From: a virus
Virus record (IMG/VR): IMGVR_UViG_3300023170_000013
Location: 1-64,000 of that record
DNA: 64,000 bases
Direction: 5' to 3' (one strand)
In this document: one piece after another, positions 3,094-23,192 of the stretch
Layout of the letters: each line of letters starts with the position of its first letter
Numbering within the stretch: the stretch's first letter is position 1
Notes under the pieces: generated by a model
What the model was told of the DNA's origin: nothing
The model's database searches: none
The model's input: only the letters and a program-made list of their open reading frames with translations
Made by a program: the position numbers and the translations under genes

Positions 3094-4404
3094 TTACAAA
3101 ATCCTCGCTGCTAAACTGGCGACTTTCGATCTTTCGCCTTTTTGTAGGGTGATATGACCAGCTAATTCAGTTTCTTTGAAACTTTCAACTGCATATGTCA
3201 GCCCGTTGGTTGTTTCATCAATGTAAGCATTGTCAATCTGCTCAATATCTCCTGTTAGAACAATCTTTGTGTTCTCACCCACACGAGTGATGATCGTTTT
3301 CAACTCATGTCTAGACAAGTTTTGAGCTTCATCAATAATAATATAAGCATCAGAAATAGAACGACCCCTTATGTAAGTGAGAGCCTCTACTTCAATCAAG
3401 CCGTTTGAAAGGTATTCTTCCATTAGAATCTTATCATTGCCCATAAGATACTGCAAGTTGTCTCTGATCGGAGCTAACCATGGTCTCATTTTCTCTTCCA
3501 TTGAGCCCGGAAGAAAGCCAATGTCCTTTCCAAGAGGCTGAACGGGTCTGGAAACAACAAGGGTTTTGTACCTTTCTGTGTTTAAGACCTGCTCCATCCC
3601 AGCAGAAATAGCAGCAAGCGTCTTACCAGACCCTGCTTTCCCAATCAAAGTAACCACAGGAACGTCAGGGTTCATTAGAAGGTCAATAGAGAACCTCTGC
3701 TCCTTATTACGGGGCTTGATTAACCATTCGTGACCCTTGCTATCAAAAATGTGTTTAAGGGGCATAGAATGGCTTAAAAAGCGCGCTAACGCAGTCTTCT
3801 TTTCATTTGAAGAGGAAACCAGCATCACAAACTGGTTTGGATGGAGATTGTGCTCTTCTTTTTCAACAAAGACATCTTTCTTTGCATAAAACTGATCCAC
3901 AATCTCTTCATCTACAAGGATTTGCTTTAGGCCGGTGTAAAGCTCGGAAGAGTCTTTTACAACCTTGGAGGCAACGTATTCTTCACATTCAATACCAATA
4001 GCGTCACATTTAACTCGCATATTGATATCACGAGAAACAACAACAACTTTCTTTTTGGGATTTTCTCTTTTTTCGGTGAGAGCTACGCAGATAATCTGAT
4101 TGTCGGGGTGTTTAGGGTCAAAGCCTTCTGGAAGATACTCGATATTATACCCTTTGGTATAAATTAAGCCTTTTCCTTTTTCAATTCGAACACCTTTTTG
4201 AAGTGAACCTTTTGTTCTTAACTCATCTAAAATTCTGATAATCTGTCTTGCCTGTGCTCCAACTCCGTCTTGTCTTGTTTTGTGTTTATCGATTTCCTCT
4301 AGAACCTTCAGGGGGATGATAATGTCGTTCTTTTTGAATTCTTTGATTGAGTTTGCGTCTGTGAGATAAACTGAAGTATCTAGGATGTAAGTTTTCTTTC
4401 TCAT
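3094..4404 (-). CDS. phoH: PhoH family ATPase with N-terminal PIN domain
   Basis: This 436-residue protein has two domains. The first ~140 residues are a PIN-type ribonuclease domain (YILDTSVYLTD with an acidic residue at the strand end, followed by VLEEIDKHK). The rest is the PhoH P-loop domain with Walker A GKAGSGKT near residue 255 and Walker B IIIDEAQN. Bacterial PIN-PhoH (PhoH2) proteins couple RNA unwinding to RNA cleavage, and PhoH genes are very common in marine phages. The frame is open to 4470, but the start at 4404 is chosen because an AAGGAAA ribosome site lies 7 bases upstream and the protein then begins at the PIN domain. It is followed without a gap by the Nudix gene. A role in host mRNA turnover or phosphate stress is inference. 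Confidence 0.9.
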   Translation of the reverse strand: MRKKTYILDTSVYLTDANSIKEFKKNDIIIPLKVLEEIDKHKTRQDGVGAQARQIIRILDELRTKGSLQKGVRIEKGKGLIYTKGYNIEYLPEGFDPKHPDNQIICVALTEKRENPKKKVVVVSRDINMRVKCDAIGIECEEYVASKVVKDSSELYTGLKQILVDEEIVDQFYAKKDVFVEKEEHNLHPNQFVMLVSSSNEKKTALARFLSHSMPLKHIFDSKGHEWLIKPRNKEQRFSIDLLMNPDVPVVTLIGKAGSGKTLAAISAGMEQVLNTERYKTLVVSRPVQPLGKDIGFLPGSMEEKMRPWLAPIRDNLQYLMGNDKILMEEYLSNGLIEVEALTYIRGRSISDAYIIIDEAQNLSRHELKTIITRVGENTKIVLTGDIEQIDNAYIDETTNGLTYAVESFKETELAGHITLQKGERSKVASLAARIL

Positions 4405-4461
4405 AATGCTTTCCTTGCAGTGGTTTAGAGTTAAAACTCTATGATTAAATAGTTTTGATAC

Positions 4462-4490
4462 TTTAAACAAATTAGAAAACTAGTTAAAAT
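4462..4490 (+). promoter_or_regulatory. Probable promoter of the lipoprotein protease
   Basis: TTTAAA, 17-base spacer, TAAAAT, in the divergent gap between phoH and the protease gene. Predicted transcription would begin about 20 bases before the ATG at 4518. It lacks the TG extension seen at the other promoters in the window, so it is weaker evidence. Confidence 0.35.
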
Positions 4491-4517
4491 TGTAACCCTA
4501 ATTTGCGAGGAAAAGCA

Positions 4518-5297
4518 ATGAGGAAACGTTTAATTTACTTTTATCTTTTTTTTATCCCTCTCTGCTTCCATTTTGCTGGATGTTCCCACCTCACTTATTT
4601 CCGCTCGTTCGCAAAGAAAAACCCATTCAAACAAAGAGCCTTTTTCAAATTTGTTCGAGTAGCAACAATTCAAATCTGTAAGCCAGAAAGATTTCACATT
4701 GCTTGCAGGTCTAGACAAGTAAGATATGAAGGTTCAGCTTTCCATGTCCACAAAGAAGGTAAGTGGAGTTATGCTTTGACTGCTGCTCACAACATATACC
4801 TTGATCCGGTACATCCAATGCACAGAAGAATGTTAAGTGCAATGAAATACAAGATCTCTGTGTCTAATGACCATTCCTACTTGATCGATTGGCACAAAAG
4901 AAAACACAAGATCGTTGGCTTCAAAATGGTGAAAAAAGCTGATCTGGGCATTGTAAGAGTCAAGTTGGTCGAAGACCTGCCTACTTACAGGATCGCCACG
5001 GAAATGCCCCAAAAAGGCGAGAAAGTTTATAATACAGCCTCACCCCTAGGTTTCTTTTCAGGAAACGTTCTAGGGCTATATGAAGGGCGTTATCTGGGTA
5101 AAAAGATTGTGCCTATCAAAGGATATAAATCTTTAATGGCTGTTTACACGATTCCTGTGATTGGTGGTTCATCTGGTTCTCCGATCCTGAATAAATGCGG
5201 AGAGGTGATCGGCATTGTTTCTTCTGTTCATAGAAGGTTCCATCATATCAGCTTTGGTGTGCCTCTTTCAGCCATTCGCTCTGCAATGTATAAATAA
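4518..5297 (+). CDS. Exported trypsin-like serine protease, predicted lipoprotein
   Basis: A 259-residue protein that starts with a positively charged, then hydrophobic signal peptide ending in a lipobox (HFAGC, Cys22), so it should be lipidated and held in the periplasm or outer membrane. The body has a chymotrypsin/trypsin-like triad: His91 in TAAHN, Asp142 in KKADLGIV and Ser219 in GGSSGSP. GEVIGIVSSV after the serine is the usual last strand of DegP/Trypsin_2-type proteases. No PDZ domain follows. The ATG at 4518 is preferred over the in-frame TTG at 4503 because GAGG lies 8 bases before it. It is isolated between two minus-strand genes and has its own promoter-like sequence. An exported protease could modify the host envelope, block superinfection or aid lysis; these are guesses. 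Confidence 0.8.
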   Translation: MRKRLIYFYLFFIPLCFHFAGCSHLTYFRSFAKKNPFKQRAFFKFVRVATIQICKPERFHIACRSRQVRYEGSAFHVHKEGKWSYALTAAHNIYLDPVHPMHRRMLSAMKYKISVSNDHSYLIDWHKRKHKIVGFKMVKKADLGIVRVKLVEDLPTYRIATEMPQKGEKVYNTASPLGFFSGNVLGLYEGRYLGKKIVPIKGYKSLMAVYTIPVIGGSSGSPILNKCGEVIGIVSSVHRRFHHISFGVPLSAIRSAMYK

Positions 5298-5849: not shown

Positions 5850-7130
5850 ATGAAGAAAACAAAGATCTTAACCATTTCTGATCATCCTTATTCTCCTTCT
5901 GGAGTAGGAACTCAAACAAAATATGTTATTGAAGCTCTTCTTAAGACTGGAAGATATGAGATCCGAGCTTTAGCAGGTGCTATTAAGCACGAGAACTATA
6001 CTCCTCAAAAAACAGAAGAGTGGGGAGACGATCTTATTATTTATCCTGTTGATGGATATGGAGATCAAGATTCAATCAGGTCTATTATCAGAAATGAAAA
6101 ACCAGATCTTCTTTGGTTTATGACAGATCCCAGATTTTATGGTTGGCTGTGGGAAATTGAAAACGAAATCAGACCACTTATGCCGATGGTTTACTACCAC
6201 GTCTGGGACAACTACCCTTATCCAAAATACAACAAAAAGTATTATGATTCAAATGATGTTATTGCTACGATTTCAAAGGTCACAGACGACATTGTAAGAA
6301 CTCTTTCTGATGTGGAGTGTCATTACATCCCCCATGCTGTAGACTCTACGGCTTTCAAAAAGCTTCCAGAGGCAGAGATCAAAGAACACAGAAAGAAAAT
6401 CTTCAAAGACAACCTTCTTGATAAAGAAGGAAATGAAAAGATGGTCTTTTTCTGGAATAACAGAAATGCAAGAAGAAAGCAATCTGGATACCTTCTTTGG
6501 TGTTTCAAAGAATTTTTGAATGAAGTGGGTCATGACAAAGCAATCTTGATGATGCACACTGAACCAAAAGACCCGCACGGTCAAGATCTTGAAGCGATTA
6601 TTCACGAATTGGGTCTTGTCAATGGAGAGGTGATCTTTTCAACAACAAAGTTGGATATTCCAACTCTTGGAAAGGTATACAATGCCGTTGACTGCACCGT
6701 GAACATTTCAGATGCAGAAGGGTTTGGATTGGCTACTTTGGAATCTCTTTCTTGTGGGACACCAATCATCGTGAATATGACTGGAGGACTTCAAGAGCAG
6801 GTAACAAATGGCACAGATTGGTTTGGAATGGGTTTGTTCCCTTGTTCAAAGTCTGTTATTGGCTCACAACCAGTACCTTACATCTATGAAGACCGCCTAA
6901 ATCAAGAAGATGTTGTTAATGCTTTGCGTGATATGTATGAGCTTTGGAAAAACAAAGATCCTGAATTTGAAGCAATGTCCCAAATGGGAATGGAGCATGT
7001 TCAAGAAAACTACAATTATGAAAAGTTTTGTGAAACGTGGGTTGATCTGATCGATAAAACAGTGGAAAAGCACGGTTCTTGGGAAAATAGAAAAAATCAT
7101 AAAACTTGGGTTTTGAAAGAGGTTGTTTGA
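5850..7130 (+). CDS. Glycosyltransferase, GT4-like (GT-B fold)
   Basis: A 426-residue GT-B glycosyltransferase. The C-terminal half has the donor-binding signature DAEGFGLATLESLSCGTPII, in which the E-x7-E pair contacts the nucleotide sugar as in GT4 enzymes. The N-terminus SDHPYSPSGVGTQTKYV is the typical first strand and loop of acceptor-binding domains. It is the first gene of the carbohydrate operon. Donor and acceptor cannot be read from sequence. The stop is followed one base later by the ATG of a 60-residue gene. Confidence 0.88.
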   Translation: MKKTKILTISDHPYSPSGVGTQTKYVIEALLKTGRYEIRALAGAIKHENYTPQKTEEWGDDLIIYPVDGYGDQDSIRSIIRNEKPDLLWFMTDPRFYGWLWEIENEIRPLMPMVYYHVWDNYPYPKYNKKYYDSNDVIATISKVTDDIVRTLSDVECHYIPHAVDSTAFKKLPEAEIKEHRKKIFKDNLLDKEGNEKMVFFWNNRNARRKQSGYLLWCFKEFLNEVGHDKAILMMHTEPKDPHGQDLEAIIHELGLVNGEVIFSTTKLDIPTLGKVYNAVDCTVNISDAEGFGLATLESLSCGTPIIVNMTGGLQEQVTNGTDWFGMGLFPCSKSVIGSQPVPYIYEDRLNQEDVVNALRDMYELWKNKDPEFEAMSQMGMEHVQENYNYEKFCETWVDLIDKTVEKHGSWENRKNHKTWVLKEVV

Positions 7131-7324: not shown

Positions 7325-8596
7325 ATGAAAAAGAAGGTTTTGATTAAAGCTCCAATGTTGAGTCGCTCTGGATATGGAGAACACGCTCGTTTTGTTCTCC
7401 GTGCTTTGCGGAGTAGAGAAGAGCTTTTCGACATTTATATCTTGAATATTCGCTGGGGCGAAACCGGCTGGATCTGGGAAGACAATGAAGAAAGGCAGTT
7501 TATTGATGAAGCAATCAAAAAAACTGTTTTGACACTTGAAGGTGCTAAAAAAGCAGGGCAACAAGTTCATTTTGATGTTTCGCTTCAAGTTACCATCCCG
7601 CAAGAATGGGAGAAGCTAGCTGCCGTTAACATTGGCTGTACAGCCGGAACAGAAACAACTAAAATGTCCCCGCAATGGGTTGAAAAAAGCAACCTGATGG
7701 ACAAGATTCTGGTTGTTTCAGAACATACAAAATATGCTTTTGATAACACAGTTTATAAATTTCAGCATCCACAAACTGGACAAGAGATCGTTTTTAGAAA
7801 TGAAACTCCTGTGGAAGTGACGCATTATCCAGTTCGTAAAGTTGCTCCTTGTCCAGAGTTTTTGGAACTTGATTTCAAGCATGATTTCAACTTTCTTTGC
7901 AATGCTCAATGGTCCCCAAGAAAGAACTTGGAAAACACTGTTCGTTGGTGGCTTGAAGAATTTCAGGACAAACCTTATGGCCTAATTCTAAAAGGAAACT
8001 TTGCCAAGAACTGTGTGATGGATCGAGAAAAGTTTGAGCAAAGAATCAATCACATTCTTAAAGACTTTGAAGACCGAGAATGTTCTGTTTATTACCTACA
8101 CGGAGACATGACAGAAGAGGAACTCTCAGCCCTTTATCAGCATCAAAAAGTTAAATGCTTTATCAATTTGGCTCATGGTGAAGGGTTCGGCCTTCCTGTT
8201 TTTGAAGCGGCTTACTATGGACTTCCAGTAATTGCCCCTGATTGGGGCGGCGTGGTTGATTTTCTTTATGCCCCAGATGATAAGGGAAAGAAAAAAGCTC
8301 ATTTCTTGAAGGTCGATTATGATCTCAAACCAGTCCAAGAAGAGGCTGTCTGGGAGCCAGTTTTGATTAGGGACTCTCTTTGGGCTTTCCCAAAAAGGTT
8401 TTCTTATGTTTCACGACTGCGAGATGTCGTGAAAATGTATGGCATTTATCACGCCAAAGCGAAGAGATTAAGAAAGTGGCTTTTGAAAGAGTTTGAAGCA
8501 GATAGCAAATATCAAAAAGTTTTGGAAAGCGTGAAGGAGAAAGATTTTGATGTTGATTCGTGGCTAGCCTCTTTGGGAGAAGAGGTTTATGATTAA
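7325..8596 (+). CDS. Glycosyltransferase, GT4-like
   Basis: A 423-residue GT-B protein. AHGEGFGLPVFEAAYYGLPV is the E-x7-E donor site, followed by APDWGG. SRSGYGEHARFVLRAL at the N-terminus is the usual GT4 acceptor-domain start. A GAGG ribosome site precedes the ATG. The stop overlaps the next start (TAATG). It is clearly of the same broad class as the gene at 5850 but diverged, so the two probably build different linkages. Confidence 0.88.
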   Translation: MKKKVLIKAPMLSRSGYGEHARFVLRALRSREELFDIYILNIRWGETGWIWEDNEERQFIDEAIKKTVLTLEGAKKAGQQVHFDVSLQVTIPQEWEKLAAVNIGCTAGTETTKMSPQWVEKSNLMDKILVVSEHTKYAFDNTVYKFQHPQTGQEIVFRNETPVEVTHYPVRKVAPCPEFLELDFKHDFNFLCNAQWSPRKNLENTVRWWLEEFQDKPYGLILKGNFAKNCVMDREKFEQRINHILKDFEDRECSVYYLHGDMTEEELSALYQHQKVKCFINLAHGEGFGLPVFEAAYYGLPVIAPDWGGVVDFLYAPDDKGKKKAHFLKVDYDLKPVQEEAVWEPVLIRDSLWAFPKRFSYVSRLRDVVKMYGIYHAKAKRLRKWLLKEFEADSKYQKVLESVKEKDFDVDSWLASLGEEVYD

Positions 8597-9435
8597 TGTA
8601 TATCTTTTTGTCCGACTTCTTTTTAGAGCAGGGTGTGATCGGCGGAGGTGAACTGAATGATTATGAGCTTTTAAAAATATTATCCAATAAAGGCTATAAA
8701 GTAAAGAAAAAGAACACTTCTGAAGTTGATTTGAGATTTTTAAAAGAAAATATTGGAAATAACTTTATTATTTCCAATTTTATATTCTTAAAAGAAGAGT
8801 GTAAAAAGTTCATTCAATCAGGGTTAAATTATGCGATATACGAACACGATCACAAATACCTAATCAATAGAGACCCCTCCAAGTGTGAAGATTATATATG
8901 CAAAAAACAAGAATTAATAAATATAGGTTTTTATCAAAATGCAAAAGCCATTTTATGTCAATCTTTGTTACACGCAGAAATTATTAACAAAAACTTAAAG
9001 AAAATAAATGCTATAAGTTTATCTGGCAATTTGTGGTCCGAAGAGGATCTGAAATTGATGAGAAAGCTTTCAGAAAACAAAAAAAGTAATTTTTATTCAA
9101 TTATAAATTCCATCAATCCAATAAAAAACACAAATATTTGTATTAAATACTGCCGGCATAAGCAGATTCCATTTAAGCTGATATCAAAAATGCCTAGACA
9201 GCAGTTTTTAACTGAATTATCTAAAAATGAAGGGCTGGTCTTCTTTCCCGGAGTTGTTGAGACATTAAATAGGGTTTGCGTGGAAGCTAAAGCAATGAAC
9301 TGTAAAGTTGTAACAAACAAGAAAGTTGGAGCTACATCTGAAGAATGGTTTTCCTTGAAGGGAGAGCCCTTATTGGAAGAAATGTATAAAATGAGAGAAA
9401 GCATTCCAAAGTTGATTATTGAGGTGTTTGAATGA
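8596..9435 (+). CDS. Probable glycosyltransferase (diverged GT-B)
   Basis: A 279-residue protein with a weak GT-B pattern. IGGGELNDYELLKIL at the N-terminus resembles the Gly-rich acceptor loop. LVFFPGVVETLNRVCVEAKA plus NCKVVTNKKVGA near the C-terminus occupies the place of the E-x7-E donor site. It is shorter than typical GT4 enzymes and AT-richer than its neighbours, with many Asn, Lys and Ile. It overlaps both neighbours by 1-4 bases, so it is translated as part of the operon. Confidence 0.65.
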   Translation: MYIFLSDFFLEQGVIGGGELNDYELLKILSNKGYKVKKKNTSEVDLRFLKENIGNNFIISNFIFLKEECKKFIQSGLNYAIYEHDHKYLINRDPSKCEDYICKKQELINIGFYQNAKAILCQSLLHAEIINKNLKKINAISLSGNLWSEEDLKLMRKLSENKKSNFYSIINSINPIKNTNICIKYCRHKQIPFKLISKMPRQQFLTELSKNEGLVFFPGVVETLNRVCVEAKAMNCKVVTNKKVGATSEEWFSLKGEPLLEEMYKMRESIPKLIIEVFE

Positions 9436-10334
9436 GAAAAGTATATATTAAATCTCACGAAGAAAACGCTGGAAAATACATTTATCGCGGCTACTTCAAA
9501 GCTTGGGAGGCACTAGGTTATGAAGTTGTGAATTATAAAAACCTTTTAGATATTTCAAATGATGAAGGTTTTTATTTGATGGCAGTGGATGCAGAAATCA
9601 ACTCCACAAACATTCACGTTGTTAAAAAAGCAATAAAGGCTTACGTATACGTCCAGCCAAACACATTTCCAATGAAGTGGGGAACGCATCCCAATTTTGT
9701 ATCATTGTGCCCAGACGATACAATTAAAGAGCTTAATGTTTTGGACAATGTTGTTCTATGGCACTGGGCAGACAGTTTTGAATACCATACAAAATGGAAA
9801 GGGATTAAAAAGCTTCCATTGGCTTTTGACTCTATCTCATATCAGATTGAAGAAGACGATAAATACAACTTTGATTGCTGTTTTATTGGCACTTGGGCAA
9901 ACAACGGCTTCAATGAAAAAAGAAAGATTTTATTAGATTATCTAGGAGAGTTTAAAAATAGCAATCTTAAGTGTGGATTTTTTATCAATCGTAATATCTC
10001 TCACGAGAAAGAGAATCTGATCTTATCTAGTAGTAAGATTGCAATTAACATTCACGATGCATATCAACAAATGCTGGGTTTGGATACAAACGAAAGAACA
10101 TTTAAATCTCTTGGGTTAACTGGTATTTTAGTGTCAGACTCTGTAAGACAAGTTAATACAATCTTTCCCAATGTACAACTGGCAAAAGATCCCAAAGAAA
10201 TGGTTCAGATTGTAGGCGATTTACTGCTGAAAGACAAAGAACAAATTAAAGAAATGAAAAATTATAATAGAAATAATGTATTAAAAAACCACACTTATAT
10301 TAAAAGAGTTGAGGAGATGTTGAGCTTTGGATAA
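9432..10334 (+). CDS. CgeB-like glycosyltransferase
   Basis: A 300-residue protein. The C-terminal third has the pattern of CgeB/Glyco_trans_1_2 proteins: CCFIGTWANNGFNEKRK, then KIAINIHDAYQ, NERTFKSLGLTGILVSDS and KDPKEMVQIV. Such proteins are single-chain GT-B transferases found in polysaccharide and spore-coat clusters. A second CgeB-like gene lies at 16148. It begins with an ATGA overlap of the previous gene. The donor is unknown. Confidence 0.7.
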   Translation: MRKVYIKSHEENAGKYIYRGYFKAWEALGYEVVNYKNLLDISNDEGFYLMAVDAEINSTNIHVVKKAIKAYVYVQPNTFPMKWGTHPNFVSLCPDDTIKELNVLDNVVLWHWADSFEYHTKWKGIKKLPLAFDSISYQIEEDDKYNFDCCFIGTWANNGFNEKRKILLDYLGEFKNSNLKCGFFINRNISHEKENLILSSSKIAINIHDAYQQMLGLDTNERTFKSLGLTGILVSDSVRQVNTIFPNVQLAKDPKEMVQIVGDLLLKDKEQIKEMKNYNRNNVLKNHTYIKRVEEMLSFG

Positions 10335-11055
10335 CAAACCGAAAGTTACAATCGTAATACCTTGTTATAATTCTGAAAAATGGATTGAACAGAGTGTTAG
10401 AACTGCTTTGGATCAAGATTACGACAACGTAGAAGTTATCTTTGTTGACAATGAAAGTACAGACAGTAGCGTTGATATTGTTAGCAAGATCCAAAGTGAT
10501 AAGCTTATTATGTCTTCTGCTCCGAACATATACCCACATTGTTGGGATGAGGCTAGAGAAGAAGGTATTAGAATGTCTACCGGTGAGTACATTTTGATTA
10601 TGGGTTCTGATGACTTTTTGGAGAACAATTTTATTTCAAATTGTATGAGCATTGTAATGAAGGTGCCGGATAAAATAAGGGTGCTTCAAAGCCCAATTAG
10701 AGGCATCAAGGGGCAAGAAGAGGGAGATGTTGGGTTCGTATCTTATTTTTACAATAACAAAGAACAACTTAAACAGGAGTTGGTGAAGAGATGCGTGGTC
10801 AACACCCCAACGGTTTTGTACAAGAAAGATGTTTTATTAGAGACAAAGACAAAACCAAGCCAATATGGAGGAGCCGCAGATTATGATTTTTATTGCCAGT
10901 TGGTTGATAAAGGAGAATTCATTTTCCCTGTGAGTTCTTGGCTTGGGTTCAATTATCGTTGGCACCCGGAACAGGCAACTTGGAAGATGAAAAAACAACA
11001 AACGAATTATGACAAGAAAATCCAGAGATTTTGGAGGGAAAAGTGGAGAATCTAA
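10327..11055 (+). CDS. Glycosyltransferase family 2 (GT-A fold)
   Basis: A 242-residue GT2 enzyme. VTIVIPCYNSEKWIEQSVRT with VIFVDNESTDSS is the classic nucleotide-binding start of GT2 proteins, and YILIMGSDDFL supplies the metal-binding DxD-type motif. It starts at a TTG with GAGGAG 10 bases upstream and overlaps the preceding gene by 8 bases. It has no membrane segment, so it works in the cytoplasm. Confidence 0.88.
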   Translation: MDNKPKVTIVIPCYNSEKWIEQSVRTALDQDYDNVEVIFVDNESTDSSVDIVSKIQSDKLIMSSAPNIYPHCWDEAREEGIRMSTGEYILIMGSDDFLENNFISNCMSIVMKVPDKIRVLQSPIRGIKGQEEGDVGFVSYFYNNKEQLKQELVKRCVVNTPTVLYKKDVLLETKTKPSQYGGAADYDFYCQLVDKGEFIFPVSSWLGFNYRWHPEQATWKMKKQQTNYDKKIQRFWREKWRI

Positions 11056-11666
11056 AAAAAAGAATTCTAGAAATAGCATATAAAAACAATCTATCGCATT
11101 TGGGAAGTTACTTCTCAAGTGTTGGTATCATTGATGAAATCTATAAAGAAAAGAAAAAGACAGATATTTTTATTTTGTCATCCGGACACGCAGCTTTGGC
11201 TTTGTATGTTGTTCTGGAAAAATATCACGATCTAGATGCAGAAAAGTTGTTTAAAAAACACGGAGGCCACCCACATCGATGTGAGAGTGATTTTATCTAT
11301 TGCTCGACAGGAAGTTTGGGAATGGGGTTGACGGTGGCTGTAGGCAGAGCCTTGGCGAATAAAGACATCCACATTCATTGTTTGGTAAGCGATGGAGAAG
11401 CATATGAAGGGTCTATTTGGGAGTCCTTGAGGTACATTGAAGAGAAGAACATCAAGAATATAACAGTACACGTAAATGTTAATGGGTATGCTGGTTATAA
11501 ATGCGTTGATTCTAGAAAATTAGTTGAAAGACTTAAAACTTTCCTTCCGGACATTCAGATTCACTATACCGATGTTGGTGAATATCCATTTCTATCCGGA
11601 TTGAACGCACATTATCACATTATGAGCGAAGAAGATTATCAATCCGCAAAGGAGAGGTTCGAATGA
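11043..11666 (+). CDS. Transketolase-like N-terminal subunit (thiamine diphosphate-binding)
   Basis: A 207-residue protein (GTG start at 11043; an in-frame TTG at 11031 is the alternative, as GGAGGG sits only 4 bases before the GTG). It follows the ThDP diphosphate-binding domain of transketolase: SHLGS (His19), ILSSGHAALALY (His49), GHPH, STGSLGMGL (~91-98), SDGEAYEGSIWES (116 on) and NVNGY (Asn147). The canonical GDG is SDG and the SKGH lysine is Ser, but the metal-binding Asp117 and Asn147 are present. It is much shorter than full transketolase (about 620) and than known split N-subunits (about 270). It forms a two-gene unit with the next gene through an ATGA overlap. A two-carbon ketol transfer reaction is expected; the acceptor is unknown. 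Confidence 0.8.
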   Translation: MENLKKRILEIAYKNNLSHLGSYFSSVGIIDEIYKEKKKTDIFILSSGHAALALYVVLEKYHDLDAEKLFKKHGGHPHRCESDFIYCSTGSLGMGLTVAVGRALANKDIHIHCLVSDGEAYEGSIWESLRYIEEKNIKNITVHVNVNGYAGYKCVDSRKLVERLKTFLPDIQIHYTDVGEYPFLSGLNAHYHIMSEEDYQSAKERFE

Positions 11667-12139
11667 GAAGATACTTTAGTGAACTGCTTCATAGAGAAAT
11701 GGGGCAAAATAAAGATATTGTTCTGATCACGGGAGACCTTGGTTATGGATTGTGGGATCGGATCAAGATTGATTACGAAGACCGTTTTCATAATGTCGGA
11801 GCAGCGGAACAATTTATGATGGGGATGGCTAGTGGAATGGCGATGGAAGGAAAAATTCCAGTTGTTTATTCGATTACTCCATTTTTGCTGTATCGGCCAT
11901 TCGAATTTATACGAAATTATGTAGATCATGAAAAAGTGCCTGTCAAGTTAGTGGGCGGAGGCCGAGGAAAGGATTATGGATACTTGGGATTTTCTCACTG
12001 GGCAGAGGACGATGTGAAAATTATGAAGTGCTTTAAGAATATAGAGACTAACCACCCAAAGAGTGAAAAAGAATTAGAAGAATCTTTTCGTGATATGCTG
12101 TACAACAAAGGCCCCTATTATTTGAACCTTAAAAGATGA
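11663..12139 (+). CDS. Transketolase-like pyrimidine-domain subunit
   Basis: A 158-residue partner of the preceding gene, covering only the pyrimidine-binding domain: DIVLITGDLG, FHNVGAAEQFMMGMASGMA (Glu49 is the residue that activates the ThDP aminopyrimidine), GKIPVVYSITPFLLYRPFEF and VKLVGGGRG. The usual third C-terminal transketolase domain is absent, so the two genes together give ~365 residues, a minimal catalytic core. Because the next genes make nucleotide sugars, I infer that it modifies a sugar, for example by adding a two-carbon branch, rather than serving the pentose phosphate pathway. Confidence 0.8.
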   Translation: MRRYFSELLHREMGQNKDIVLITGDLGYGLWDRIKIDYEDRFHNVGAAEQFMMGMASGMAMEGKIPVVYSITPFLLYRPFEFIRNYVDHEKVPVKLVGGGRGKDYGYLGFSHWAEDDVKIMKCFKNIETNHPKSEKELEESFRDMLYNKGPYYLNLKR

Positions 12140-12152
12140 GTAGGAAAGTAAA

Positions 12153-13010
12153 ATGAATAATACCGTGCTTGTCACCGGTGCAAATGGTTTTATTGCAAAA
12201 AGCATCATTCCAGAATTGGAGAAAAAATATAAAGTTATTTCTACAAATAGAGCTACTTTGGATGTTTTAGATGAGACCGAGGTAGACAACTTTTTTCAAG
12301 CTAATAAAGTTGACTACGTGGTACATACGGCGGCTTCCGGCGGAAAAAGAATTCATAAAAACGAAGAAAGATATTTCTATGAAAATTTGAAAATGTATGA
12401 AAACTTGAAAAAACATAGAGATAAGTTCAAGTTGATGATTGTTTTTGGTTCCGGAGCGGAATATTGCAAAGAAGAAAACATTGAAAACGTAGATGAAGAA
12501 AAGTTTGATAATAAAGAACCTCTTAATCATTATGGAAGAGCAAAGCAAGAAATAACAAAAAGCGTTATCAATATAAACGACAACATATACAATATTCGTA
12601 TTTTTAATTGCTTTGGAGTGAACGAAGAACCTCAAAGAATGATTAAAAATTCTATCTTAAAATATATTGAAAAGTGTGGTATAATAGTACACAAGAACAA
12701 AGAGATGGATTTTTTCTATGTGAAGGATTTGTATAGAATTATAGATCGCTTGATGTCCGAAGGTGGTCATAAATTTAAGCAATTTAATGCTTGTTATATG
12801 GAAAAACAAACTTTATTGGATGTGGCAAACAAGATCAACAACCTAGACAACCACGATGTAGATATTTCCTTGTTGGATGAGGAAATGGATAATAGCTATT
12901 CTGGAAACGGCGCAAGGCTAGGCTCTTTGGGATTAGAATTCATAGGTTTTGACGAAGCAATTAAAGAGTATTATCGGGAGATTAAAAAATATGCAAAAAC
13001 AGCTTCTTAA
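12153..13010 (+). CDS. Extended SDR: NAD(P)-dependent sugar-nucleotide reductase/epimerase
   Basis: A 285-residue extended short-chain dehydrogenase. TGANGFIAKS is the Rossmann TGxxGxxG loop, HTAASGG the second cofactor strand, FGSGAEY the catalytic Ser region and HYGRAK the YxxxK pair. It most resembles enzymes that reduce 4-keto sugars bound to a nucleotide (abequose- or tyvelose-pathway type reductases), but the exact product is not readable. GGAAAG precedes the ATG. It lies between the transketolase pair and the E1-like dehydrase, which suggests that it reduces their product. Confidence 0.8.
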   Translation: MNNTVLVTGANGFIAKSIIPELEKKYKVISTNRATLDVLDETEVDNFFQANKVDYVVHTAASGGKRIHKNEERYFYENLKMYENLKKHRDKFKLMIVFGSGAEYCKEENIENVDEEKFDNKEPLNHYGRAKQEITKSVININDNIYNIRIFNCFGVNEEPQRMIKNSILKYIEKCGIIVHKNKEMDFFYVKDLYRIIDRLMSEGGHKFKQFNACYMEKQTLLDVANKINNLDNHDVDISLLDEEMDNSYSGNGARLGSLGLEFIGFDEAIKEYYREIKKYAKTAS

Positions 13011-14346
13011 TGAGATTTTAAACTTGGTTAGTGAGTATGTTAAACAAAAGAACAAAGAAGAAAATGACTGGAAAGAGGGCGATTGGGTTAAATATTCAGG
13101 ACCAGTTTTGGATGAACGCGAATACAAAGAAGCAATCAGAACTCTCTTGAGCGGTTGGCTCATTTATGGCGAGAATGCAAGAAAGTTTGAATTAGAATTT
13201 GCAAAAGAGCTTGGCAAGAAGTTTGGAGTTTTGACAAACTCTGGAAGTTCTGCTAACCTTCTGATGGTGTCCACACTAACATCGAAAGATAAAAGATTGG
13301 CAAAATACCATCTTCCTCGTGGTAGTAAGTTTATTACTCCTGTGGTGTGTTTCCCAACAACTCTCAACCCCATCATTCAGAATGGATATGAGCCAGTTTT
13401 TGTTGATGTTACGCTCCCTGATTTGAATCTGGATTTGGATCAAGTGGAGAAAAAACTAGAAGAAGATCCTGAAATTAAAGGAATTATTTTTGCTCACGTC
13501 CTAGGCAATCCACCAGATATGGATAGACTGATGGCCCTTGTGGAAAAATATGAACTAGTGTTTTTGGAGGATGCTTGTGATGCTCTAGGTTCAACATACG
13601 ATGGTAAGTTGCTGGGCTCTTTTGGTTTGATGTCGACTTGCTCTTTCTTTCCAGCCCACCATATGACGATGGGAGAGGGTGGTTTTGTTGCGACTAACCA
13701 AAACCAACTTCGAAGGGGATTGGCTAGTTTTAGAGACTGGGGTAGGGCTTGCTATTGCAATGAAAAGTCTCCCGGAGATGTCACATGTGCAACTGCTTGC
13801 GGAGATCGATTTAAGAATTGGTTTCCAGATTTGCCAGAAGTTACATATGATCATCGTTATGTTTTTGATGAGATTGGGTACAACATTAAGCCACTGGATC
13901 TTCAAGCCGCAATGGGGCTGGAGCAGTTGAAGAAATTGGAAAAGTTTCATCAAGACAGAAAAGATAACTTTGAAAGATTGTATGAAATCTTCAAGCCATA
14001 TGGAGAATATTTTCATCTACCAAAGGCAACAGAAAAAGCAGATCCTAGCTGGTTTGGATTTCTTTTGACTGTCAAAGAAGGAGCGCCCTTTAGTCGACAT
14101 CAATTCCAAACATATATGGAAAAGCAAAAAGTTCAAACTAGAGCTTACTTTACCGGCAATGTTATGTATCACCCCGGATATCGACATTTGGCTAAAGAGT
14201 ACGGAGAGCTTAAAAAAGTATTTCCAAATGCTCACTTGGCAACAACCAGCACTTTGTTTTTGGGAACTTATTCTGGCTTGACTGAAGAGAAAATGAATTA
14301 TATTAAAGAAAAGGTAGATGCCTTTTTTAAAGAATTGGGAGCATAG
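12991..14346 (+). CDS. rfbH: E1/RfbH-type PLP and [2Fe-2S] C3-dehydrase for 3,6-dideoxy sugars
   Basis: A 451-residue DegT-fold enzyme. Instead of the PLP lysine it has His223 in FFPAHHMTMGEGG, as in CDP-4-keto-6-deoxyglucose-3-dehydrase (E1/AscC/RfbH), where the cofactor is used as PMP to remove the C3 hydroxyl. Cys196, Cys254, Cys256 and Cys266 form C-x57-C-x1-C-x9-C, very close to the [2Fe-2S] motif described for E1 (C-x57-C-x1-C-x7-C). This separates it from the cluster-free ColD. GSSANLLMVS and ACDALGSTYDG are the other cofactor-contact regions. The ATG at 12991 is chosen over 12949 because GGGAG lies about 10 bases before it. No E3-type reductase gene is seen in the window, so electrons may come from the host or from elsewhere on the phage. 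Confidence 0.88.
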   Translation: MQKQLLNEILNLVSEYVKQKNKEENDWKEGDWVKYSGPVLDEREYKEAIRTLLSGWLIYGENARKFELEFAKELGKKFGVLTNSGSSANLLMVSTLTSKDKRLAKYHLPRGSKFITPVVCFPTTLNPIIQNGYEPVFVDVTLPDLNLDLDQVEKKLEEDPEIKGIIFAHVLGNPPDMDRLMALVEKYELVFLEDACDALGSTYDGKLLGSFGLMSTCSFFPAHHMTMGEGGFVATNQNQLRRGLASFRDWGRACYCNEKSPGDVTCATACGDRFKNWFPDLPEVTYDHRYVFDEIGYNIKPLDLQAAMGLEQLKKLEKFHQDRKDNFERLYEIFKPYGEYFHLPKATEKADPSWFGFLLTVKEGAPFSRHQFQTYMEKQKVQTRAYFTGNVMYHPGYRHLAKEYGELKKVFPNAHLATTSTLFLGTYSGLTEEKMNYIKEKVDAFFKELGA

Positions 14347-14348
14347 AT

Positions 14349-15299
14349 ATGAAAATAGTTTATATTACTGGCTGCTTGGGGTTTATGGGCTCACATACCA
14401 CTAGAAAGGTGCTTGAGATGGGCTGGGAAGTGTGTGGAGTGGATAAGTTGACCTATGCAGCCAATCCGGATTATCTGGAAGAATTCAATAAATATCCAAA
14501 TTTTAAATTCATTAATTCAGATATCAAAGATTTGAAATCGCTTTATGATTGCGATTATGTTATCAACTTCGCAGCCGAGTCTCACGTTGGAAACAGTATT
14601 ATTGATAGTGATGAGTTTATTACCAGTAACATTGTTGGTGTTAAAAACTTGCTAGAACTGGTTCGGAGGAAACCTCACAACTGTAATGATAGGCCGATTT
14701 TGTTTCATATTAGCACAGATGAGGTGTATGGAGACATTGAAGAAGGTGCGCACAATGAAGAGTCCATCTTGAACCCAAGTAACCCATATTCAGCATCAAA
14801 AGCGGCTGCTGATATGCTGATCACAGCGTGGGCTCGAACATATGGAATTAAGTATCTTATCTTGAGACCGACAAACAACTACGGCCCCGGCCAATATCCA
14901 GAGAAATTAATTCCGATTTCTGTCAAGAATTTGATGCGAAAGAAAAAGATCAAACTACACAACGAAGGCACTCCAGTAAGGAACTGGCTACATGTAGAGG
15001 ATACGGCAGAAGCTGTTATTAAGATTGTAGAATCAGGCGAAGTTAATCAAGTATACAACGTTGCCGGTGGCTTTGAGCAGGCAAATGTGGATACAGTAAG
15101 GAAAATTATCAAAGCTTTCTTTGGTTCGGAAGAGAATTGGAGAGAACATGTAGACTTTTCAGAAGTTAGAGAGGGTCAAGATGTTAGATATGCAATTGAT
15201 GACACAAGATTGAAAGAACTAGGATGGAAACCCTTGAAGGAATTCGATGAAGAGATTGTCGAGATTGTAAAAGAAGTAAGGAACAACTGGAGATGGTAA
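14349..15299 (+). CDS. NDP-glucose 4,6-dehydratase (RmlB-like)
   Basis: A 316-residue extended SDR with TGCLGFMGSH, DKLTYAANPDYL, FAAESHVGNSI, STDEVYGD (catalytic Asp-Glu), YSASKAAAD (YxxxK) and RPTNNYGPGQYPEKLIP. All of these match dTDP-glucose 4,6-dehydratase rather than the CDP-glucose enzyme RfbG. It oxidises C4 and removes the C6 hydroxyl, giving the 4-keto-6-deoxy sugar that the E1-like enzyme next to it needs. It is some 30-40 residues shorter than bacterial RmlB. The nucleotide carried by the substrate (dTDP, CDP or GDP) is not proven. Confidence 0.85.
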   Translation: MKIVYITGCLGFMGSHTTRKVLEMGWEVCGVDKLTYAANPDYLEEFNKYPNFKFINSDIKDLKSLYDCDYVINFAAESHVGNSIIDSDEFITSNIVGVKNLLELVRRKPHNCNDRPILFHISTDEVYGDIEEGAHNEESILNPSNPYSASKAAADMLITAWARTYGIKYLILRPTNNYGPGQYPEKLIPISVKNLMRKKKIKLHNEGTPVRNWLHVEDTAEAVIKIVESGEVNQVYNVAGGFEQANVDTVRKIIKAFFGSEENWREHVDFSEVREGQDVRYAIDDTRLKELGWKPLKEFDEEIVEIVKEVRNNWRW

Positions 15300-16144
15300 A
15301 GCAAGAGAAAAAAATTGCTTGTTTGATCTATTTTTTTGGCAAAAGGTACGAAAGAATAGGAAAATGCGCTGTTGATAGTTTTAAAAAATATCATCCGGAT
15401 GTTGATTTGATTCATGTTAACAAAGAAAATGCTGAACAATATCGTTCAACAGAGAAACTTAAATTAGTTGGCCATGGCATATACAAATATATGCTAGCTG
15501 CTGAAATTATGATGAGATTTAAGTATGATAAAATCATCGTCCTAGGTGCAGATACCATAACTTGTTCTAGATTGACAGAATTTATTGATAACGATGAAGA
15601 TGATATATTAGCCACGTTGGATTATCCATACAGGCTATATTCTAGACATCGTAATATGTTTTTATCACCAGATTCTGAAACACATCTTAATGCAGATGTG
15701 GTTTGTTTCAATAATCCTTCTGCTATAGTCGATATTGTTAGAATTGCTAAATCATTCCCAGAGTATGTGGAGCAGGCTGGGTTGAATTATGTTGTATGGT
15801 CTGAAGATTATAACTATTCGTGTTCAATTGTTGATGGCCCATACAAGACTAGCGAGGTTGTATACAATGCTCGCGCAAAAGGAAATATCGTAGCCAAGCC
15901 GAACACAAAACCTTGGGGAGAGCATACTAATAAATTCTATGTGAAAGATCAAAAGTTGTATACCGGCGATAATAAGCAAATTAAAGTTTGGCATTATTGT
16001 GATGGCTTGGGAGTTCAAACTGATGCAGTATTTATGGGCACAATGAATCATTATATTAATGATTGGTTTAATAAAGAGACAAAAGAGTTCTTTGAAGAAT
16101 GCTGTGATTGTGGAGACTTTTTCAAAAGAGAGTTTGCTTTTTAA
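15293..16144 (+). CDS. Probable GT-A type glycosyltransferase
   Basis: A 283-residue protein starting KKIACLIYFFGKRYERIGKC, with DKIIVLGADTIT near residue 80 in the place of the metal-binding DxD of GT-A enzymes (GT8-like layout), then ILATLDYPYRLY, HLNADVVCFNNP and a His/Trp-containing KVWHYCDG near the C-terminus. Family assignment is tentative. The C-terminus has a CC-x-C cluster of unknown meaning. It overlaps the dehydratase by 7 bases. Confidence 0.6.
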   Translation: MVKQEKKIACLIYFFGKRYERIGKCAVDSFKKYHPDVDLIHVNKENAEQYRSTEKLKLVGHGIYKYMLAAEIMMRFKYDKIIVLGADTITCSRLTEFIDNDEDDILATLDYPYRLYSRHRNMFLSPDSETHLNADVVCFNNPSAIVDIVRIAKSFPEYVEQAGLNYVVWSEDYNYSCSIVDGPYKTSEVVYNARAKGNIVAKPNTKPWGEHTNKFYVKDQKLYTGDNKQIKVWHYCDGLGVQTDAVFMGTMNHYINDWFNKETKEFFEECCDCGDFFKREFAF

Positions 16145-16147
16145 TAT

Positions 16148-17050
16148 ATGAGAATTTTACTTACAACAAACAAAACATACAGAGGCTTTTTAGATGGTGG
16201 TTATTACCATTTCTTCTCGGCATTAGAGGAGTTAGGGCACGATGTTTATTTTTATGATACGGTCAAACCAGATGAAGTAAGTTATTCTAAAGTTATAGAA
16301 TCCTTTAAGCCAGATGTTATATGGTCTTGTTTGACGGGTGATGCCAACATCGCCCCATATGAACCAACAAGAGAGATTAAAAGAGAAACAAAGAGAGGTA
16401 GAATCAAGACATTCAATTGGTTTTGCGATGATACTTGGAGATTTGAAACGTTTTCCAAAAAAGTGTGTAATTTTTTTACTTGCTGCTCCACTCCAGAGCC
16501 GCTTTATTTAGAGAAATATAAGCAAATAGGGTATGATAATATACTTTTAGGAAACTGGCATATAAATAACAAATACATCAAAAGAGTAGACTTTGAACAG
16601 AAAGACATTGACATTTCTTTCATAGGCAATATGACCAAACAAAGAAAGAATTTTTTTGATAATGTTGACATCGAGGTTAGCAACTTTTTTGGTTTAACAA
16701 ACGAGCAACTTTTCAACACACACGGTAGAACAAAGATCGGAATTAATTTAAGCAGGAACGATAATGATCCTTTGCGGAAAACGCAAATGAAACAAAGAAT
16801 ATTTGAAATAGCCGCTTCAGGTGGGCTAGTCGTGACTGAATATCATAAAGGAATCGAAGAGTTTTTTACAATCGATAAAGAAATCATAACGTTTGAAACA
16901 GTCGATGAGTTCAATAAAAAAGTTATTTTTCTGTTAAAAAACCCCAAATTAACAGAAAAGATTGCAAATAACGGATACAAAAGATTCTGCAAAGAGCACG
17001 AATCTAAAATTAGATTGTCAAAAATCTTAACAAAGATAGTGGAAATATAA
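16148..17050 (+). CDS. CgeB-like glycosyltransferase
   Basis: A 300-residue protein with the CgeB layout: GYYHFFSALEELGHDVYFYD at the N-terminus, WFCDDTWRF in the middle, DISFIGNMTKQRKNF, then KQRIFEIAASGGLVVTEYHK and FETVDEFNKKV as the donor-site region. It is more typical of the family than the gene at 9432. It is AT-rich, like the neighbouring 15293 and 17051 genes. Acceptor and donor are unknown. Confidence 0.75.
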   Translation: MRILLTTNKTYRGFLDGGYYHFFSALEELGHDVYFYDTVKPDEVSYSKVIESFKPDVIWSCLTGDANIAPYEPTREIKRETKRGRIKTFNWFCDDTWRFETFSKKVCNFFTCCSTPEPLYLEKYKQIGYDNILLGNWHINNKYIKRVDFEQKDIDISFIGNMTKQRKNFFDNVDIEVSNFFGLTNEQLFNTHGRTKIGINLSRNDNDPLRKTQMKQRIFEIAASGGLVVTEYHKGIEEFFTIDKEIITFETVDEFNKKVIFLLKNPKLTEKIANNGYKRFCKEHESKIRLSKILTKIVEI

Positions 17051-17956
17051 ATGGAAGTATTGGTAACTGGCGGTTCAGGATTTGTTGGAACCAGATTGCA
17101 AAAAAAGCAGAAAAATTGGACATATATTTCTTCTAAAGATTATGATTTGACGGTCAAAGATCATTGCCGGCAAATGCTTTTAGATATAAAACCTGATGTT
17201 GTTCTTCATTTGGCTGGTAAAGTTGGTGGAATAAAAGAAAATAATAAAAAACAAGCAGACTTTTATTATACCAACACCATGATTAATACCAATATTTTAG
17301 AAGAATCGTATCGTGCAGGGGTGGGAAGGGTTCTGTCTTCTTTAAGCACATGTGCTTTCCCAGATAAGCTAGACAAATACCCATTTACAGAAGAAGATCT
17401 GTTAATAGGACCACCGGCTGTAACAAACTTTTCTTATGGATATGCAAAGAGGAGCTTGTTTGTGCAGTCATTATCATATTCACGCCAGTATGGTGTAAAT
17501 TATAATTGTTTTTGCCCCTCAAATCTATATGGGCCTGATGATAATTTTGATTTAGAGAGTGGTCATTTTGTGCCGAATTTAATTCGAAAAGTTTTTGAAT
17601 CAGGTATGAAAAAGAATATTGAACTGTGGGGGACCGGTAAGCCTTTGAGGCAACAATTGTATGTTGACGATTTGGTTCAGCTTATTCCCGTTTTAATAAA
17701 AAAGCACAAAGGGGATTCCCCATTGATAGTGGCTCCTAATGAGAATTATTCGATCAGAGAGTTGGCTAATCTTTTAATTGAGCAATTGGATAGAGATTTT
17801 AATATTGTGTTTAATAATGAATTGGATGGACAATTCAGAAAAGATGGAGATAACAAGCGTCTTCTAGGCGTAGTAGGTGATTATAACTTTACCACTTTTA
17901 AAGAAGGGGTTATGAAAACATATGAATGGTATGAAAAAAACTATGAAAAACAATAA
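17051..17956 (+). CDS. fcl: GDP-L-fucose synthase (GDP-4-keto-6-deoxymannose epimerase/reductase)
   Basis: A 301-residue extended [34 protein letters not shown] (catalytic Ser and the Cys of Fcl), YGYAKRSL (YxxxK), [20 protein letters not shown] and [17 protein letters not shown]. These are the Fcl signature segments. It epimerises C3 and C5 and reduces C4 of GDP-4-keto-6-deoxy-D-mannose. The partner Gmd follows at once, overlapping by 14 bases. Together they would convert GDP-mannose from the host into GDP-L-fucose. Confidence 0.92.
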
Positions 17957-18926
17957 GACAGCTATTATTACTGGCGCGACTGGTCAAGATGGCTCTTATC
18001 TTGTAGAGCTTCTTTTAGATAAGGGGTATTTTGTTGTTGGATGTAAGAGAAGAACATCCATTATCTGTACAGAAAGATTGGATCACATTTATGATCATCC
18101 AAACTTTAAATTAGAATATTTTGATTTAAATGATGTTGGTAACATTTATCGCCTTTTGATGAAATATAAGCCGGATGAGTTCTATAATTTAGCAGCACAA
18201 TCTCACGTTCGAGTTTCTTTTGATATTCCAGAACATACAGTCGATGGAGTGGCAATGGGAACTTTGAGAATTCTAGAGGCGATTAAGAATGTTCTCCCAA
18301 CGTGCCGTTTCTATCAGGCTAGCTCTTCAGAAATGTTTGGGGACAATCCTGAAAATCCACAAAATGAAGAGACGGCTTTGATGCCTGCATCACCATATGC
18401 CTGTGCAAAGGTGTTTGCTCACAATTTGATTAGAAATTATAGAGAATCATATGGGCTCCATCTCTCTTCGGGGATTTTATTCAACCATGAATCTCCTAGA
18501 AGAGGCGAAACTTTTGTGACAAGAAAGATCACAATGGCAGCAGTAAGGATTAAATTGGGCTTGCAACAAAAGCTATATCTAGGAAATCTAGACGCAAAAA
18601 GAGATTGGGGTTTCGCAGGGGATTACGTTGAAGCAATGTGGATGATGCTACAACAAGAGCAGCCAGATGACTATGTTGTTGCAACAGGTGAAACACACAC
18701 TGTAAGGCAGTTTTTAGACGTTGTTTTTGAATATGCGGGTCTAGACACCAAAAAGTATGTAGAGGTTGATGAGCGGCTTTTTAGACCCCACGAAGTGCCT
18801 CTGCTTTTGGGCGATGCTACCAAGGCAGAGAAGAAATTAGGATGGAAGCCAAAAGTTAGATTTAATGAATTGGCAATTATGATGTATGAAGAAGATCTTA
18901 AAAAATTAAAAGGAGAAGTAAAATGA
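17943..18926 (+). CDS. gmd: GDP-mannose 4,6-dehydratase
   Basis: A 327-residue enzyme with [48 protein letters not shown] (Ser-Glu catalytic pair), [12 protein letters not shown] (YxxxK), [19 protein letters not shown] and [20 protein letters not shown], all diagnostic of Gmd. It makes GDP-4-keto-6-deoxy-D-mannose for Fcl. In-frame ATGs at 17922 and 17931 could also start it; 17943 is chosen because family members start just before the Rossmann strand. It is the last enzyme of the sugar operon. Confidence 0.93.
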
Positions 18927-22196: not shown

Positions 22197-23192
22197 ATGA
22201 CAATCAGCGCAAGTAAACCTTCACAAGGTGCAAAAAGATTAAATACAGATAAAGATGCTTTGAGTACGGATCAGTTAAAAGAGATGAATAATCTGAATCC
22301 AAGTTTGCGAAAAGCTAGAATGCTAGGTGTGGGCGGCTCTCAAATGCTTGTCCCAAAACCAGAGTATATCAAGGCAGATGGGGATATTATACTAGACAGT
22401 AAGAACTCTAATGCCTCAATAGTGGTAGGGAAAGATAGACCCTCTGGGCTAACATCAGGGTATGGAGGCTTAGGACATCAAAAATCTTCTACAATTGACA
22501 TTGTCGCAGGCAGGATATCTCAATTTGCTAAAACAACAATTAGACAAGGTGGTGGCCCCGAAAGAAGAGTGTTTGCAGACCCTAACTTTCGGTATGATGC
22601 TTCTAGGATTTATATATCAGAGAAGACAGATATTGATCAAAACTTTGGGATAGTAAAGACTGATAATTTTAACACAGCACCTAGCATTACAGGCCGTCCC
22701 GCTATCGGTATGAAAGCGGATTTGGTTCGAATTGTTGGCGACGAAGGAATCAAGCTAGTCACGGGTGTATACAACAAAGGTGATAAAACACCGGCAGGCA
22801 TTCAACTGATTGCTCAAAATGCAGACAAGGGAGTTTTAGAGGTGCAGCCGTTTGTTAAAGGCAAGAACTTTCTCCAAAGTTATTATCAAATGTATAAGAA
22901 TGTTCTAATATTAAATGGGCTTTTGCAAGAGTTTGTTAATTATCAAATTTCATTTAATAGGATAGTTTCAAATCATACCCACTTTTCAAGCGCTCCGGGT
23001 GCTCCAACTACGCCTCCCGGTGTTATGACGATTGAGGCTTTTGTTAACTTGTCGTTAAGGTTGAATAAACAAATAGAAAATATAGGAACAAGGTTGGAAC
23101 AGCAAGTTGATAACCTAACCAATTGGGAACAAATCTGGACAAATCCGAAAGAAGAGACATTCTTGCTTTCAAGGTTTAATGGGACAAACTAA
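22197..23192 (+). CDS. Putative baseplate hub/spike-associated structural protein
   Basis: A 331-residue Gly/Asn-rich beta protein. The segment around KADGDIILDSKNSNASIVVG and TIDIVAGR resembles repeated beta-helix-like strands seen in tail spikes and hub proteins. NHTHFSSAPGAPTTPPG is a HxH-containing segment typical of gp5-like spike regions. The C-terminus is helical. It starts 3 bases after the peptidase gene and its stop overlaps the next start (TAATG). Assignment to the tail block is firm from context; the exact role is inferred. Confidence 0.6.
   Translation: MTISASKPSQGAKRLNTDKDALSTDQLKEMNNLNPSLRKARMLGVGGSQMLVPKPEYIKADGDIILDSKNSNASIVVGKDRPSGLTSGYGGLGHQKSSTIDIVAGRISQFAKTTIRQGGGPERRVFADPNFRYDASRIYISEKTDIDQNFGIVKTDNFNTAPSITGRPAIGMKADLVRIVGDEGIKLVTGVYNKGDKTPAGIQLIAQNADKGVLEVQPFVKGKNFLQSYYQMYKNVLILNGLLQEFVNYQISFNRIVSNHTHFSSAPGAPTTPPGVMTIEAFVNLSLRLNKQIENIGTRLEQQVDNLTNWEQIWTNPKEETFLLSRFNGTN

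Follow-up and report, generated by a model that had tools for sequence, protein, structure and literature searches.

The gene at positions 12991-14346 (plus strand) of the window, which here means the whole stretch of 64,000 nucleotides that was analysed, is an intact open reading frame with an ATG start and a GGGAG sequence upstream of it. It encodes a protein of 451 amino acids of the E1/RfbH type, i.e., a PMP-dependent nucleotide-sugar 3-dehydrase. The protein scores 472.8 bits with the NCBIfam model RfbH, above the equivalog cut-off of 423, it matches PF01041, and in alignment its nearest solved sequence is E1. Its predicted structure (mean pLDDT 94) has the DegT/DnrJ/EryC1/StrS fold, and a fold search with this structure returns E1 (3bcx) first and ColD second. 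As originally predicted, a histidine replaces the PLP lysine at residue 223 (13657-13659, plus strand); H223 aligns with H220 of E1 and is invariant in 70 relatives. Family model, fold, the histidine in place of lysine and four conserved cysteines, to which we return below, give good support to the central claim of the original prediction, namely that a phage carries a PMP dehydrase of the E1/RfbH type in which a [2Fe-2S] site is probable. Between pairs of relatives, dN/dS is about 0.05, an approximate value given that dS is near saturation; where measurable, so low a ratio reflects strong selection and thus a gene in use.

The gene is part of a run of overlapping or abutting plus-strand genes (starting at 11031/11663, 12153, 12991 and 14349), which continues with sugar and glycosyltransferase genes up to 18926. 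Further upstream on the same strand are glycosyltransferase genes (5850-7130, 7325-8596, 9432-10334 and 10327-11055; PF00534/PF13692, PF13524, PF00535) and a gene without family match (8596-9435). They are followed by the two halves of a split transketolase, the ThDP-binding, N-terminal half (11031-11666, matching transketolase models), which overlaps the next gene, and the pyrimidine-binding half (11663-12139; PF02779, E 1.1e-18), and by an SDR gene (12153-13010; PF01370, epimerase/dehydratase or ketoreductase), which overlaps the start of the E1-type gene. Immediately downstream lies an RmlB-type nucleotide-glucose 4,6-dehydratase (14349-15299, plus strand; TIGR01181), the probable substrate supplier, followed on the plus strand by a gene without family match (15293-16144), a glycosyltransferase-like gene (16148-17050; PF13524) and Fcl-like and Gmd genes (17051-18926), a GDP-fucose type branch within the sugar cluster. 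The Gmd gene passes the cut-off of TIGR01472 (459 bits against 415), and the Fcl-like gene stays below that of the GDP-fucose synthase model (198.4 against 500).

The IMG/VR virus record that contains the window is 93,943 bp long and, further along, has genes for a terminase, a portal and a major head protein; the terminase shares about 46% identity with its counterparts in one Microcystis phage and several Flavobacterium phages. These genes, and the presence of an identical E1-type gene on a viral contig of 156,945 bp, make contamination of the record unlikely. The window also encodes a PhoH-like protein with a PIN domain (3094-4470, minus strand) and, adjoining it, a trypsin-like protease (4503-5297, plus strand). 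Just beyond the sugar cluster are two very long open reading frames (23192-28819 and 32579-41035; 1875 and 2818 amino acids), whose products are possibly tail or fibre proteins and targets of the sugars.

Partner genes, substrate nucleotide and electron supply

Relatives of the protein are encoded by at least 585 IMG/VR stretches in one scan, and a further viral scan with the protein of Synechococcus phage S-H68 as query yielded 209. With relatives on hundreds of viral contigs, and with rfbH already listed among viral genes in surveys (PMC10653327, PMC11295528), the enzyme is not the unusual or rare phage cargo it was first taken for. Partner genes were counted inside the fetched flanks of E1 loci, as RmlB-like (threshold at least 40%) or RfbG-like (CDP-glucose type) genes, in a main viral sample of 97 loci (L003-L022 and L105-L181, some of them near-copies) and in the 80 nearest genome loci, where a first scan was empty and matches came with an alignment as query. 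RmlB-like genes accompany E1 in 78 of the 97 viral loci, in 39 of them within 400 bp, and RfbG-like genes in none; the corresponding figures for the genome loci are six of 80, four of these six being the phage-like L025-L028, and 26 of 80.

The dehydratase at 14349 reaches 312.4 bits with TIGR01181 as opposed to 91.0 with the CDP-glucose model TIGR02622, and since the former value lies below the TIGR01181 cut-off of 365.1, the nucleotide is unproven. Among ten dehydratases scored, the viral proteins score better with the dTDP model (293-310 bits; S-H68 381.7, above the cut-off), and those from cells with the CDP model (472-523 bits for three of them, and just 197, below the cut-off, for L096). 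From the RmlB-type family of the partner we infer that the phage E1 acts on a dTDP-linked substrate. It is rather unlikely that the enzyme is instead an ordinary CDP-linked E1 (RfbH) fed with host-made CDP-4-keto-6-deoxyglucose, its loop a product of neutral drift and its RmlB-type neighbour serving another sugar. The RfbH equivalog score is in keeping with such a role, and the Gmd and Fcl-like genes indicate that the cluster makes more than one sugar, but every host would then need to provide CDP-4-keto-6-deoxyglucose, and the close and frequent pairing with RmlB-type genes in viral loci that all lack RfbG-type genes speaks against it.

Other partners are less regular. SDR relatives occur in 61 of the 97 viral loci, and both transketolase halves in 24 of 97 viral and seven of 80 genome loci; with transketolase genes in merely 24 viral loci, sugar branching is not a general property of the group. 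A nucleotidyltransferase (NTP_transferase) was found in none of 12 viral records.

With respect to electron supply, the initial observation that no reductase partner is visible in the window extends to the whole 93,943-bp record and to the contig of 156,945 bp on which an identical gene lies: neither of them, both maybe incomplete genomes, has a match to Fer2, NAD_binding_1, FAD_binding_6 or Flavodoxin_1. With no ferredoxin, flavodoxin or E3 found in the record, the electrons are presumably host-derived. Fer2 was likewise found in none of eight viral records and flavodoxin in none of 18, and a motif search, perhaps with too strict a motif, found no E3-like genes beside E1 in viral or cellular loci. 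Separately, a gene for a ferredoxin-reductase-like protein of 261 amino acids (L183:1411-2196, minus strand; also L182) is present in two E1-carrying viral records, G002 and G005, which probably represent one phage kind, and in these only; in G002 some 25 kb separate it from E1, and it possibly constitutes a phage-encoded electron supply in these two.

Cluster cysteines and loop length

The protein has cysteines at positions 120, 196, 217, 254, 256, 266 and 270. The original prediction read the cluster motif as C-x57-C-x1-C-x9-C, and the letters for this reading exist (C196, C254, C256 and C266). In the alignment, C266 falls on C257 of E1 and C270 on C261, of which we take C261 to be a cluster ligand and C257 a non-ligand. 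Both alignment and conservation thus designate C270 as the fourth ligand: C196 (13576-13578), C254-Y-C256 (13750-13758) and C270 (13798-13800, all plus strand) occupy the positions of the four cluster cysteines of E1, with no misplacement seen, and are invariant in 16 viral relatives and in a mixed set of 70, and C266 (13786-13788) varies in both. By homology the motif is C196-x57-C254-x1-C256-x13-C270, with a loop of 13 residues (13759-13797, plus strand) that is six residues longer than the x7 of E1, and not two. Within the structural model, confidence is lowest in this loop (pLDDT 67-84 in blocks 251-280). The x57 spacing, already pointed out in the original prediction, and the x1 spacing are kept in all 97 viral and in 78 of 80 genome relatives, far beyond chance.

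This conservation bears on two further readings. An aminotransferase, or an electron-free dehydratase like ColD whose cysteines no longer serve iron, would share the fold type and agree with an electron donor not being found in the record, and SpnQ is indeed able to transaminate without a reductase (PMC8987622). We regard such an activity as improbable, however, as the lysine is replaced by histidine and the four cysteines are kept in the 97 viral relatives, while nine lower-scoring bacterial matches from a sample of 299 genomes, which look ColD-like or similar, lack the cysteine motif. That C266 binds the cluster in an x9 arrangement and leaves C270 spare is very improbable, even though some viral relatives have an extra loop cysteine and E1 has C257 at the equivalent place, for the C266 column holds many other residues and C270 never changes.

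The shift relative to E1 is therefore real, but the gap is x13 instead of x9, and a shifted motif characterizes the phage E1 clade as a whole, not one gene. In the 97 viral loci the last gap measures 13 residues in 48, 12 in 40 and 11 in nine, and seven in none. Since x7 is the spacing of the type enzyme and the homologous fourth cysteine is present, the protein at 12991-14346 with its gap of 13 is counted as a variant within the E1/RfbH family. A cyanophage-type set (L220-L299), consisting of contigs recovered with the S-H68 protein as query, has a gap of 11 in 80 of 80 loci, most of them 73-98% identical to the query and hence counted as one group. The deposited phage records S-H68 and AG-345-D19 and that of a 642-kb phage each have 11 as well. 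With a bacterial E1 as query against viral contigs, nine loci were obtained: L304 and L305 are on the contigs that also carry L137 and L114, two long-loop loci from the main sample, L302, L303 and L306 were left out of the loop reading, and L300, L301, L307 and L308, on contigs classed as viral, bear a cellular-type x7 loop, which L301 and L308 share, leaving three distinct x7 loops. A cellular-type x7 E1 is also present in L185 (OR851175.1), an unverified record of 2,570 bp named 'Salmonella phage S.Kent 1-2-1', which is probably host DNA. As each of these viral sets gathers the top matches to a given query, x7 is rarer among the sampled viruses yet present, and its share applies to the sample only.

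The 80 nearest genome loci have x7 in 70 cases (68 with x57 and two with another first spacing), 11 in five, 13 in three and 10 in two. In the independent sample of 299 genomes, all from a single phylum, 35 have a match above the RfbH cut-off, and x7 is found in 34 of the 34 readable E1s (L320 excluded), which comprise 30 loci (27 read by pattern, plus L203, L218 and L219) and four further ones. Totals are kept separate for each set because the sets were drawn differently.

In a tree built without the loop columns, with a midpoint root only, a branch with an SH-aLRT value of 99 separates 77 viral and six genome rows from 65 genome rows, and a program count on this tree requires one change between long (at least 10) and short loops. 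Two x10 genome rows branch basally on the cellular side, which makes a stepwise lengthening of the loop possible. The six genome rows that group with the viruses are L025, L026, L028, L029, L031 and L047. L025 and L026, small contigs from MAGs, show the phage gene order; together with L027, these short contigs, binned as Thaumarchaeota/Maricaulis MAGs, have the same phage cluster order and are probably binned phage DNA. The Pirellula contig L028 (1-3892) has a phage-type E1 and an RmlB-like gene, with a transposase-like gene opening the contig and bacterial genes beyond, and perhaps records a gene transfer between phage and cell. L029, L031 and L047 look cellular, and the 11-residue-loop E1s of L029-L031 and L047 (Nitrospirales and another bacterium), which group with the viral clade, are a possible source of the phage E1 form.

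Proposed pathway and relation to known enzymes

Judged from its sequence, the product of 12991-14346 very probably removes an oxygen from a sugar with the help of vitamin B6 and an iron-sulfur cluster, and we put the probability that it acts as an E1-type nucleotide-sugar 3-dehydrase within a phage-encoded deoxysugar operon at roughly 0.6. The proposed mechanism is based on the E1 chemistry reviewed in PMC8987622. The RmlB-type dehydratase (14349) would convert host dTDP-glucose to dTDP-4-keto-6-deoxyglucose, which the E1-type enzyme would couple to PMP, with H223 removing a proton and the C3 hydroxyl departing. The resulting PMP-glucoseen intermediate would be reduced in one-electron steps via a putative [2Fe-2S] cluster on C196, C254, C256 and C270, fed by a host ferredoxin or flavodoxin and its reductase. 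The product, dTDP-4-keto-3,6-dideoxyglucose, would then be reduced by the SDR (12153); alternatively, the split transketolase (11031/11663) may first add a two-carbon branch at C4, in line with the proposal that split transketolases branch keto sugars (PMC12247030). Nearby glycosyltransferases may finally place the sugar on an acceptor of the phage or of the host, with virion, DNA and host surface as candidates.

The closest characterized system is E1/AscC/RfbH, the CDP-6-deoxy-L-threo-D-glycero-4-hexulose-3-dehydrase of Yersinia pseudotuberculosis (PDB 3bcx, 3bb8), which resembles the phage protein in its fold, the histidine in place of lysine, C-x57-C-x1-C and the homologous fourth cysteine. 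The phage protein differs from it in a gap of 13 instead of seven, in its RmlB-type rather than CDP-glucose-type partner, and in that E3 was not found in the record. A precedent for combining a [2Fe-2S] site with a dTDP substrate and generic ferredoxin/flavodoxin reductases, as proposed here, is SpnQ, the dTDP-4-keto-2,6-dideoxyglucose 3-dehydrase of spinosyn formation (PMC8987622); the likeness, taken from its description only, would cover these three traits, whereas SpnQ uses a 2-deoxy sugar and serves antibiotic synthesis. ColD, the GDP-4-keto-6-deoxymannose 3-dehydratase (PDB 2gms, 3b8x), has the fold and the histidine in common with the phage protein, but acts on a GDP sugar, is hydrolytic and has no iron-sulfur cluster (PMC8987622), unlike the phage protein with its four conserved cysteines. 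The S-H68 protein QBP05885.1, annotated as CDP-4-dehydro-6-deoxy-D-glucose 3-dehydratase, belongs to the same clade and adjoins RmlB- and RmlC-annotated genes; it is only about 36% identical, has a gap of 11, and the score of its RmlB (381.7) exceeds the dTDP cut-off.

More tentatively, and with appreciably less confidence than in the activity itself, we propose a virus-dominated E1 subfamily characterized by a switch to dTDP sugars, a [2Fe-2S] loop remodelled to a length of 11, 12 or 13 residues and the use of host electrons, some members of which would form a hitherto undescribed branched 3,6-dideoxy sugar by means of the split transketolase. The long-loop clade looks new: a limited literature search, covering few subscription papers and thus weak evidence of novelty, found no description of it or of its RmlB pairing.

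One odd motif thereby leads to a testable group on hundreds of phage contigs, whose enzyme should depend on vitamin B6 as well as on an iron-sulfur cluster, and for which the partner gene points to a substrate linked to dTDP and not to CDP. If this is true, phages would make their own 3,6-dideoxy, and perhaps branched, sugars during infection with the help of host electrons, and these sugars would be destined for the virion, for DNA or for host-surface glycans.
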